A stretch of DNA of 43,362 nt from NCBI GenBank assembly GCA_021780375.1, contig JAJXYT010000019.1, positions 1-43,362 on the forward strand. The letters run 5' to 3'. The translations under genes and the position numbers were made by a program. The notes below the pieces were generated by a model. The model was not told the origin of the DNA. It saw only the letters and a program-made list of their open reading frames with translations, and made no database searches. The DNA is from a bacterium. Its GTDB lineage: Bacteria; Verrucomicrobiota; Verrucomicrobiia; Limisphaerales; UBA11358. Shown piece by piece: positions 30,269-32,513 of this stretch (position 1 is its first letter; each line of letters begins with the position of its first letter).

Positions 30269-31135
30269 ATGAAAAGAATTCTAAAACAAAAAAAGGCCTT
30301 CACGCTGATTGAACTGCTGGTGGTGATCGCCATCATCGCCATTCTGGCGGCCATGCTGCTGCCGGCGCTCGCCGCCGCCAAGCGCAAGGCGCAACGCATC
30401 AATTGCATCAGCAATCTCAAACAAATTGGCATCTCCTTCCGGATGTGGGGAGACGACAACAACGGTCAGTATCCGATGACGGTTACTTGTGCCAATGGCG
30501 GCGCCGAAGAAAATGTTAATAGTGCGCAAAATCCAAACCTTTCAATGACTCCGCCGACACCTTGGACGGCGGGACTTCATCCGGCGCAGTGCTTTACCGT
30601 GATGTCGAATACGTTGGATAATCCGGCATTGCTGGATTGTCCCTCGGATTCCACCGCGCCTCACAGCAGTGCGGCCACGAATTGGTTTGAACTCTATGCT
30701 AATCCTAACGCCGCCCCCTCTGGCCAGACTGCGTTCAACGCCAGTTATTTAAGCTATTTTGTTTGTGGTGATTCCATTGATACCCAACCCCAGTCCATCC
30801 TGGCGGGTGACCGCAATATCGGCAGCGACCAGGCTCTTGGTGCGGGACAAAACGCCCCAGGGATGTATAATCCCAATCCCGCTAACCCTCCCCCTTCCGC
30901 TTCCAGTAACGGCCCAAACGGCTTGGGAATAGCTGGTAGTGGCACCGGAGCTACTTCGCTGAAGGGTTTAAATTGGGGGTATTGGGCGTGGTCGGCCAAC
31001 GATATTCACCTGGGGGCCGGCAACCTGCTGCTGGGTGACGGCAGCGCCCAACAGGCAACCATCTCCGATTTGCAGAACGACTTGGTAAACGCCACGAATG
31101 GGGCGACCCTATATCCGTTTTATAATTTCCCGTAA
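30269..31135 (+). CDS. Prepilin-type N-terminal cleavage/methylation domain protein
   Basis: This 288-residue protein is a type II pseudopilin-like protein of the large Planctomycetes/Verrucomicrobia/Lentisphaerae expansion. The leader [17 protein letters not shown] is cut before a Phe-Thr-Leu-Ile-Glu core, with the methylated Phe and Glu at +5. A hydrophobic helix ends with [18 protein letters not shown], followed by [24 protein letters not shown]. The C-terminal part contains the H-X9-DG motif (His, nine residues, Asp-Gly, in [14 protein letters not shown]). The protein would be inserted in the inner membrane and assembled by a PilB/GspE-type machine such as the one at 8534-14633. It stands alone between its own promoter and terminator. 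Confidence 0.93.
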
Positions 31136-31162
31136 CCTGCCGGGGTGTTAATTGACTATGAA

Positions 31163-31193
31163 CGAGGCGTCCGAAAGGACGCCTCGTTTTTTT
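31163..31193 (+). terminator. Intrinsic terminator of the prepilin-like gene
   Basis: A perfect ten-pair stem (CGAGGCGTCC at 31163-31172 with GGACGCCTCG at 31177-31186) closes on a GAAA tetraloop and is followed by seven T residues at 31187-31193. It starts 28 bases after the stop codon. This is the clearest intrinsic terminator in the window. Confidence 0.95.
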
Positions 31194-31268
31194 GCGGCGA
31201 CGCGCTGAAGTCCACCCTGGTTATGCGGTAAATCCCTTAACAGCGCGTCTGAAGATCCCATATTCGTC

Positions 31269-31356
31269 GTAGCAGCCGACGTGAGTCGGCTCAAATTCCC
31301 TTGTGATACGCCGCTGCGGTCCTGTAGTCAGAGCCAGCTCACGCTGGCTGCTGCTA
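31269..31356. repeat. REPIN-like inverted pair 1
   Basis: The left half (31269-31293) starts GTAGCA and then forms a hairpin GCCGAC-GTGA-GTCGGC. The right half (31331-31356) is the inverse type, a GCCAGC-TCAC-GCTGGC hairpin followed by TGCTGCTA. Each half has a six-pair stem and a four-base loop, and the two loops are complementary (GTGA/TCAC). A GTAG head followed by a hairpin, present as an inverted pair, is the known layout of REP sequences served by RAYT (TnpA-REP) transposases. This copy sits between the prepilin terminator and the end of tadA. Confidence 0.8.
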
Positions 31357-31371
31357 TTTCTCAGACACGCT

Positions 31372-31896
31372 TTAACAATTATCAGGAATCTGGCCGTCGG
31401 TCTTTCGCTTCGGCTTCCCGGAAAGCCGCTGTTCGGTAAAAAAATCCTGCAACAAGGAGCGGCATTCCTTCTCGCGCACACCCCGGGTGATCTCACAACA
31501 ATGGTTCAGCGAGGGAAACTGCAATAAATTCATCGCGCTTCCCGCTGCCCCGGCCTTCAGGTCGCTGGCGCCGAACACCACGCGCGCCAGCCGCGTGTGC
31601 ACCATGGCGCCGGCACACATCGGGCACGGCTCCTTGGTCACATAAAGGATGCAATCGGTCAACCGCCAGCCGCCCACCACCGCCTCCGCCTGCGTGAGCG
31701 CCAACATCTCCGCGTGGGCGGTCGCGTCCTTCAGCAATTCGACCTGATTAAATGCCCGGGCGATGACATGTCCTTCGCGCACAATCACCGCGCCGACCGG
31801 GACTTCGCCTGCTTCATACGCCTTGGCGGCCTGGCGCAGCGCCTCGCACATGAAAAAGTCGTCGCTGTGCAGGTCAATGACGGGTTCATCCTGCAT
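31372..31896 (-). CDS. tadA: tRNA-specific adenosine deaminase
   Basis: This 174-residue enzyme converts the wobble adenosine of tRNA-Arg(ACG) to inosine. The zinc site and catalytic residues are complete: His61 and Glu63 in ATAHAEMLAL, and Cys91 and Cys94 in KEPCPMCAGAM. The FGASDLKAGAAGSAMNLL stretch and the NH(C)CEI segment are typical of TadA. A TTG two codons upstream (31902) is also in frame; I use the ATG at 31896, with GGAA just ahead. REPIN-like elements lie on both sides of the gene (31269-31356 and 31908-31976). Confidence 0.94.
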   Translation of the reverse strand: MQDEPVIDLHSDDFFMCEALRQAAKAYEAGEVPVGAVIVREGHVIARAFNQVELLKDATAHAEMLALTQAEAVVGGWRLTDCILYVTKEPCPMCAGAMVHTRLARVVFGASDLKAGAAGSAMNLLQFPSLNHCCEITRGVREKECRSLLQDFFTEQRLSGKPKRKTDGQIPDNC

Positions 31897-31907
31897 TTCC
31901 AAATATC

Positions 31908-31976
31908 GTAGCAGCCGACGTGAGCCGGCTCATTCTTTTTTTGAGAAAATCAGAGCGAACTCACGTTCACTGCTAC
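31908..31976. repeat. REPIN-like inverted pair 2
   Basis: The left half (31908-31932) is the same sequence as in pair 1 apart from one base, GTAGCA plus the hairpin GCCGAC-GTGA-GCCGGC. The right half (31953-31976) is inverted and ends in TGCTAC, an exact complement of the GTAGCA head. Read on the minus strand the right half is GTAGCA, then GTGAAC-GTGA-GTTCGC. A T-rich spacer with TTCTTTTTTTGAGAA separates the halves. The right half overlaps the 3' end of the NUDIX gene. Confidence 0.85.
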
Positions 31977-32462
31977 AAATTCCTCCAGCGTCCATTCATT
32001 CCGGCCATCCGGGTGGCAATGGCAATGGGCCGCAAAAAAACCGCCCCGGTGTTGCCAGAACCAGGGCCAGATTTGCTCGCGATCGGTCCGGGGGATTCTC
32101 AATGAAGTCAGCGCCTCCCGCGGGAAGAATTGAAACCGGCCTTCGGCATGGGGCGGCGGCAGCAGCTGCAACTTCGCCTTCAATTCGAACAGAAACATCA
32201 GCCAATGCGTTTGGCCTTGATAACCGTGTTCGCTGACCAGGCCGGCCAGATGCAAATCGGCGGTTCGCACCTTGATGCCCAATTCCTCTTGCGCCTCGCG
32301 GCCGGCGCAGGCGTAGGGCGACTCGCCGATGTCCATTTTTAACTTTCCGCCGCACGGGCTCCAGAAACCACGGTTCGGCTCCTGTGCGCGCTCCAGCAGC
32401 AGGACGTCGTCGCGTTCATTGAAGCAGTACAGCAGGGTGGCGATTTTGTAGGGCAGCGGCAT
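31950..32462 (-). CDS. NUDIX hydrolase whose last codons lie in a REP element
   Basis: This 170-residue protein has a NUDIX fold and a motif close to the consensus: GGKLKMDIGESPYACAGREAQEELGI, where the REAQEELGI helix is canonical and the spacing from the first Gly to the Glu is two residues longer than usual. The start LPYKIATLLYCFNERDDVLLLERA is typical of MutT-like enzymes, which hydrolyse nucleoside diphosphate derivatives. The substrate cannot be told. The final residues VAVNVSSL and the TGA are spelled by the right half of REPIN-like pair 2, so the original 3' end was probably replaced. I use the ATG at 32462 over the TTG two codons upstream. Confidence 0.88.
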   Translation of the reverse strand: MPLPYKIATLLYCFNERDDVLLLERAQEPNRGFWSPCGGKLKMDIGESPYACAGREAQEELGIKVRTADLHLAGLVSEHGYQGQTHWLMFLFELKAKLQLLPPPHAEGRFQFFPREALTSLRIPRTDREQIWPWFWQHRGGFFAAHCHCHPDGRNEWTLEEFVAVNVSSL

Positions 32463-32513
32463 TGACAATTTCGGATTTTCGATTTATGTGCGACGCGATT
32501 TTAGAAAATGGCT

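Follow-up and report, generated by a model that had tools for sequence, protein, structure and literature searches.

Known REP/RAYT systems and the elements beside tadA

The REPINs of Pseudomonas are inverted REP doublets, and the doublet is reportedly the amplified unit, as Bertels and Rainey are said to have described in 2011, in a host phylum and with hairpin sequences that differ from those treated here. The likeness to the elements described below lies in the doublet as the unit, with the 38-nt spacer of one of our elements being common to two other doublets. For the GTAG super-family of REPs, the portions of PMC3733652 (Di Nocera et al. 2013) that were available describe a GTAG foot and a short loop and, for most families, stems of 6-9 bp and dimers in which the GTAG-outward type is the most frequent; the family of the window shares these traits. 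It differs in that most of its halves have a GTNA loop and in that fully paired forms occur together with tandem G-A forms. GTAG REPs of Verrucomicrobia are named in the same portions for Opitutus terrae (GTAG-17, -19 and -20), and the likeness of our family to these is one of description. The E. coli REP, which is the target of TnpAREP, has an AA-GC mismatch bulge according to the accessible parts of PMC8266576; one form of the present REPs has a tandem G-A instead, and the same verrucomicrobial clade of transposases also includes RAYTs with fully paired REPs, unlike the bulged REP of E. coli.

We conclude that the two elements flanking tadA very probably are GTAG-type REPINs, i.e. mobile elements that are non-autonomous and consist of an inverted pair of REP hairpins with GTAG heads, which belong to a family spread across one Verrucomicrobiota genus, would most likely have been copied by a RAYT of a clade found in sister species, and landed beside tadA. 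This conclusion is drawn from the copy number, the head-outward pairing, the covariation, the occurrence of empty and filled junctions in relatives, and the association with RAYTs in relatives. Two REPINs are ordinary as such, and their importance is that they reveal a REP/RAYT system with many members in Verrucomicrobiota of a group that has been little studied. A search for three REP sequence tags in the open-access literature gave no match, and among the matches listed by a search of papers outside subscription, none dealt with REPINs or RAYTs of Limisphaerales or Pedosphaera.

Structure of the two elements

The window, i.e. the whole stretch of 43,362 bases that was analyzed, is contig C2 of its own genome (G000), whose draft assembly totals 4.01 Mb, consists of 210 contigs and is 84.7% complete. 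The features around tadA are as follows.

31161..31188, no strand assigned: terminator-like inverted repeat of 12 bp without mismatches and with a T-run behind it, downstream of a pilin-like gene
31269..31354, no strand assigned: REPIN 1, a head-outward hairpin pair with 38-nt spacer, flanked by tadA and the convergent pilin-like gene
31269..31292, + strand: left half of REPIN 1, GTAGCA + GCCGAC-GTGA-GTCGGC + TC
31331..31354, - strand: right half of REPIN 1, GCAGCA + GCCAGC-GTGA-GCTGGC + TC
31372..31902, - strand: tadA, tRNA adenosine(34) deaminase (NF008113, 180.7 bits, cut-off 150)
31908..31976, no strand assigned: REPIN 2, a head-outward pair with 21-nt spacer, flanked by tadA and the nudix gene
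31908..31931, + strand: left half of REPIN 2, with one A-C mismatch in the stem (GCCGAC/GCCGGC)
31950..32468, - strand: NUDIX-domain protein (PF00293, E 2.2e-16), overlapping REPIN 2 at its 3' end
31953..31976, - strand: right half of REPIN 2, with one T-G wobble, also coding for the final 8 residues of the nudix ORF

Both elements lie where the preliminary description had placed them, as head-outward hairpin pairs on either side of tadA. Four 24-nt halves, and none further, were found in the window with a 24-nt pattern at up to 3 mismatches, for which shuffled versions of the window gave a mean of 0.14 matches. Two other REP types of the same genome, those of contigs C35 and C142, were absent from the window when up to 3 mismatches were allowed. 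The left halves of the two REPINs, which had been reported to differ at one base over 25, are indeed nearly identical (1 of 27 bases different, 96% identity over 27 nt), and the left-half sequence of REPIN 1 is the commonest among the A-type halves examined in the genome (27/97). Heads of GTAGCA had been given for all halves, which applies generally, but the right half of REPIN 1 is headed GCAG; the six-pair stems with compensating changes are likewise broadly present, but REPIN 2 deviates by its mismatch on the left and its wobble on the right. A seventh stem pair, A6-T23, is present in 92 of the 97 A-type halves of the family.

When folded singly as ssDNA, three of the four halves give a 7-bp stem with a 4-nt loop, and the left half of REPIN 2 forms five pairs. 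Compared with dinucleotide shuffles, folding is better for both whole doublets (z -3.0 and -3.9) and for the left half of REPIN 1 alone (z -4.0), and the single halves of REPIN 2 are unremarkable, with 25/200 and 15/200 shuffles folding equally well.

A repeat family with inverted pairing and stem covariation

The exact core GTAGCAGNNNNNGTGAG occurs 75 times in G000, and its reversed-pattern control does not occur at all; over 49 genomes of the genus, the reversed control of this short core gave 14 scattered matches in all, none of them in G000. Three sub-classes were counted by exact full-length match in the same 49 genomes, with a reversed control of 0 in every genome. Class A, to which the elements of the window belong, is fully paired (GTAGCAGCSGACGTNAGTCSGCTC), and in classes B1 (GTAGGAGNCGASGTNASGAGNCTC) and B2 (GTAGCAGCCGASGTNASGAGGCTC) the outer stem is separated from the loop-closing pair by a GA that faces another GA. 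Exact full-length copies in G000 number 67 for A, 9 for B1 and 21 for B2. That the hairpins arose by chance is a reading of practically no probability, as four matches were reached in 0 of 100 shuffles of the window, the reversed control in the genome was 0, and the copy number refutes it.

Pairing was scored in ~222 kb around exact core matches and some RAYT-like genes, where 135 of 144 candidate halves were kept; since these stretches were picked by the exact core, the sampled halves are biased towards intact copies. Of adjacent pairs within 120 nt, 56/61 are head-outward, and the two other orientations account for 3 and 2 (5 in total). Thus 112 of the 135 halves stand in 56 head-outward pairs, and 23 are single. 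The spacers of the head-outward pairs in G000 are 9-38 nt long, 22 being the commonest length. The preliminary description had interpreted the elements as REP doublets of the type associated with RAYTs, and the copy number, the inverted pairing and the RAYT-like genes described below bear this out.

Selection on the hairpin structure, which had been proposed from compensating changes within the window, agrees with the covariation in 97 A-type halves. At pair 9-20, C-G (47) and G-C (43) are almost equally common; pair 10-19 is G-C in 86 and A-T in 11, and pair 11-18 is A-T in 88 and G-C in 9. Partners within a doublet differ at pair 9-20 in 35/46 cases (shuffle mean 22.8, p 0.0002), and heterodimers with partners that differ in the stem are also described as frequent in GTAG families in the available portions of PMC3733652.

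Two other doublets with a 38-nt spacer (C156:53980 and C167:3943) are 86% and 88% identical to REPIN 1 over ~130 bases, and this shared spacer together with the identity of the three doublets points to a spread of the doublet as a whole. Stretches that are 76-80% identical to the REPIN 1 region are found at other genomic places in two relatives (G022:C83:14393-14526 and G032:C41:1567-1698), which suggests that the sub-family with the 38-nt spacer is older than the species of the window.

The idea that REPINs favor one reading frame in order to supply stop codons was rejected: among 129 halves tested, the 50 with a dominant long open frame were split 20/18/12, i.e. there is no preference.

Insertion history of the tadA region

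tadA and the nudix gene are adjacent in all 13 of 13 relatives read, which allows a comparison of the junction that contains REPIN 2 in the window. This junction has no insert in 5/13 relatives; between fixed points in both genes, the empty junction measures 61-63 nt in G004, G034, G024 and G039 and is similarly short in G008. The same junction is filled by an A-class REPIN in G020, as it is in G000, and by a B1-class REPIN in G044, and it contains other sequence in G009, G022, G021, G047, G016 and G045. Empty, A-filled and B1-filled junctions in relatives indicate that the site was probably hit by insertion more than once. Between the pilin-like gene and tadA, no REPIN 1 was seen in the five relatives read (G016, G009, G022, G044 and G004). 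As five of 13 relatives are empty at the REPIN 2 site and REPIN 1 is unseen in the five relatives read at its own site, the flanking of tadA by REPINs looks incidental.

These junctions also bear on the possibility that the elements are fixed and immobile, and are selected as hairpins at gene ends to act on the RNA level as mRNA stabilizers, attenuators or terminators. Both elements are indeed at gene ends, the doublets fold well, the stems covary, and REPs are said to act on RNA as well (PMC3733652, in the portions available). Nevertheless, we regard this as improbable: the presence or absence of REPs and the different REP classes at the same junction in sister species do not fit it, and the empty junctions in relatives thus weaken it; the family also flanks RAYT genes, and a search of 31000-32300 against Rfam gave no family at gathering score.

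If the elements are mobile REPINs, as we prefer to read them, the insertion of REPIN 2 may have had local consequences. The last eight codons of the nudix gene are, by translation, encoded by REPIN 2, directly followed by the TGA stop at 31950-31952. In the compact arrangements of G004 (L142), G039 (L157) and G034 (L146), the nudix stop overlaps with the tadA start (ATGA), and a GGAGG lies inside the nudix end. In the window (31885-31995), REPIN 2 sits between the GGAGG motif and the tadA start, and by this separation the insertion may have changed the translation of tadA. The junctions L152 (G047) and L154 (G016) contain other inverted-repeat-like inserts; these are of AACATTCAAC... and GTCC-rich types and seem to belong to additional repeat families. 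On the other side of tadA, a hairpin with T-run similar to the terminator-like repeat of the window is present at the pilin-like gene in five relatives read.

RAYT genes in the genome and in relatives

The search for a RAYT-like gene in G000 had a divided outcome, as there are six NF047646 matches, two of them above the curated cut-off, but none lies beside the REPs of this family: no family REP was found within ~1500 nt of any of the six genes. Their flanks contain other GTAG repeats (C35, C142), other repeats (C48), or TIRs (C70, C191, C206). The two RAYT genes on C35 and C142 (L077:4430-4600 and L088:1200-2400) have their own GTAG repeats, GTAGCGGCGGGCATCC... and GTAGGGACGGCGCG..., and going by these repeats G000 seems to hold several REPtrons. 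The Y1 transposase genes on C191, C70 and C206 (L031, L032 and L033), of which the one on C206 has a shortened open frame, are flanked by TIRs starting with GGGTCRGT and resemble the TIRtrons of PMC3733652, as far as its available portions describe them. It could be argued that the elements of the window are MITEs of these three genes, given that G000 has these Y1 genes and that they are flanked by terminal inverted repeats. This is, however, very improbable, even more so than a role as fixed RNA elements, as the TIRs are unrelated to the REPs when compared by eye and the GTAGCAG element is absent within 1500 nt of the Y1 genes, the nearest on C70 being ~2.2 kb away.

A distinct clade of ~200-aa RAYTs is present in 22/49 genomes of the genus, and G000 is not among them. 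In G000, which is 84.7% complete, no RAYT of this cognate clade was found with PF01797, NF047646, the protein of a relative, or alignment, and only distant RAYTs were obtained (best E 5e-5); since the assembly is in 210 contigs and incomplete, this absence is weak evidence. An IS200-like gene on C203 that came up in the transposase search was rejected as cognate RAYT. Among at least 72 NF047646 matches in 11 genomes, 30 were taken as loci, and related REPs adjoin the RAYT in two of them (L096, L097); L087 has two REP halves, but these are more than 1 kb from its NF047646 match. The clade itself was examined at 29 loci (30 fetched minus one second fragment), 20 of which have an A, B1 or B2 REP within 700 nt of the RAYT, and 9 of which do not. 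Within 700 nt of a RAYT of G044 (L120, on C228), fourteen A-type REP halves stand in near-regular arrays, and twelve of these halves are GTGG-footed.

The clade has the characteristics of the known enzymes. The PDHxH motif and the catalytic-tyrosine region are conserved, with H67, H69, Y126 and N130 invariant in 17 aligned members. The only match of the clade profile in the PDB at E <= 0.1 is 4er8, the E. coli TnpAREP (E 1.2e-5), and an AlphaFold2 model of a clade RAYT (mean pLDDT 86.4) has its best fold match in the same structure (E 6.4e-7). The A-class RAYT L121 scores 42.5 bits against NF047646, below the cut-off of 80. A larger tree groups the RAYTs next to A-type REPs in a single clade (10 rows, support 98/89) and likewise those next to B2-like REPs (11 rows, support 99/99); in a smaller tree of the genus, B1 is clear, and A and B2 are not separated.

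By analogy with the known family, a RAYT of the sister-species clade, as an HUH/Y1 single-strand endonuclease, would recognize each REP half as a folded ssDNA hairpin with its GTAG foot, and would then cut and rejoin, thereby copying the doublet to new sites. The lineage of the window would have had a past or present cognate RAYT, and the doublets that landed on either side of tadA would have been kept since these sites are intergenic or tolerate insertion.

Whether that RAYT is past or present leads to the possibility that the REPINs of G000 are relics, whose cognate RAYT has been lost and whose copies are immobile and decaying. We consider this quite possible, if a little short of probable. 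No cognate RAYT was found in the assembly of G000, there are REP-rich sister genomes that lack this RAYT clade, such as G040, G016 and G032, and RAYT loss that leaves REPs behind is frequent in Pseudomonas and Stenotrophomonas according to the available part of PMC3686654. Among the REP-rich sisters, G040 is 93% complete and contains the exact core 41 times, and a search of it with NF047646 found nothing at E <= 0.001. On the other hand, 27/97 A halves are identical and 15/97 share the second commonest sequence, which suggests little decay, in a sample that favors intact copies. The absence of the gene is moreover weak in an assembly of this completeness and fragmentation, and REP-flanked genes may assemble poorly, though the enrichment of REPs at contig ends is slight (3/101 halves are at most 150 nt from an end, as compared to an expected 1.38).

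REP copy number and RAYT class

If the REPINs are multiplied by RAYTs of this clade, copy number and RAYT class can be compared across the genus. The median number of REPs is higher in genomes with a RAYT of the same class than in those without, i.e. 9 vs 0 for A, 45 vs 2 for B2 and 20.5 vs 5 for B1, with one-sided p values of 0.005, 0.004 and 0.001, respectively, that ignore kinship. When the REPs beside the RAYT itself are left out, the values are 0.044 for A, 0.004 for B2 and 0.003 for B1, again ignoring kinship. The link of copy number to the RAYT is weak for class A once RAYT-adjacent REPs are omitted; in G014, all five exact A copies are at the RAYT locus. In cross-class comparisons, one of six reaches 0.05 (B1 RAYT vs B2 REP, p 0.021). 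Two genomes whose RAYTs have GTAGGAAAC repeats (G038 and G043; L205, L207) were counted as being without B1, and if they are counted in, p is 0.0017.

High copy numbers also occur in genomes that lack the RAYT of the class, which speaks against a tight link. At least 15 exact A copies are present in 6/44 genomes without an A-class RAYT (G000 67, G001 34, G007 26, G040 24, G006 18 and G016 17), and 67 B1 copies are present in G020, which lacks a B1-class RAYT.

Fully paired and tandem G-A REPs and the RAYT helix

For a wider set, a scan of genome contigs gave 108 relatives, and the best 80 of 108 loci were kept. According to the labels of the deposited MAGs, nearly all of the 80 are from Verrucomicrobia (Limisphaerales, Pedosphaera, subdivision 3, Verrucomicrobiales and Opitutae), and the other labels are four 'bacterium', one Lentisphaerae, one Bryobacteraceae and three Akkermansia. 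In the 350-nt flanks of these best 80 RAYT loci, G-A REPs only were found at 45, fully paired REPs only at 25, both at 6 and neither at 4; reversed flanks gave 0 G-A and 4 paired matches. Of the two tests, that for paired hairpins is less strict. Once the hairpins had been inspected, L227, L228, L233 and L247 were relabelled by hand from both to G-A, and L225 and L226 from paired to other; L247 was then dropped due to stops, resulting in a tree of 79 rows, 71 of them labelled. With these hand-assigned labels, the REP class needs 5 changes on the RAYT tree. The G-A REPs as a group need 8 changes, as compared to 24.9 when shuffled, with 0/500 shuffles as low, in a set in which near-copies assist the clustering. 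In these sequence comparisons, the REP stem class thus follows the RAYT tree.

When all alignment columns were ranked, column 90, which had been spotted by eye ahead of the ranking, had T in 45/48 G-A RAYTs and in 1/23 paired ones; column 93 had E in 38/48 vs 0/23, and column 86 had A in 37/48 vs 1/23. The exceptions at column 90 are one RAYT of the paired group with T (L242) and three of the G-A group without it (L227, L230 and L238). All three columns are within the helix predicted at 81-96 in the AlphaFold2 model, and column 90 aligns with K82 of 4er8, gap-free from the HUH motif onward. In E. coli, as the accessible parts of PMC8266576 describe, K82 touches the bulged C27 of the REP, the correction of the REP mismatches abolishes or severely affects activity, with the unpaired state seemingly weighing more than the letters. 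For two REPs of group 3, according to the same source, mismatches impair cleavage, and it is speculated there that this helix is also used in group 3.

We tentatively propose that the REP within one verrucomicrobial RAYT clade has switched several times between a fully paired stem and one whose tandem G-A mismatch is conserved, and that a small patch formed by residues 86, 90 and 93 of a DNA-binding helix would set the form that is read, as a simple recognition code, which is a conceivable scenario with the balance tipping somewhat against it. Both stem types occur in one clade, and the residues that track them best belong to the helix whose E. coli counterpart contacts the mismatch; if the proposal is true, the choice of a REP by a RAYT would come down to a test of few residues between close relatives. 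There are 5 independent contrasts in all, 3 of them on well-supported branches, a number at which a sign test is unable to reach 0.05. Within these 3, residues 90 and 93 are concordant in 2.4 and 2.5 contrasts and never opposite, and residue 86, which is concordant in 0.8 and opposite in 0.3, does not hold up. As the contrasts are few and residue 86 fails in them, the association of the helix residues with the stem class is a lead.

Two further RAYTs, L232 and L236, are flanked by both a paired and a G-A REP and have E and R at column 90, and it is possible that they are intermediates between the two classes.
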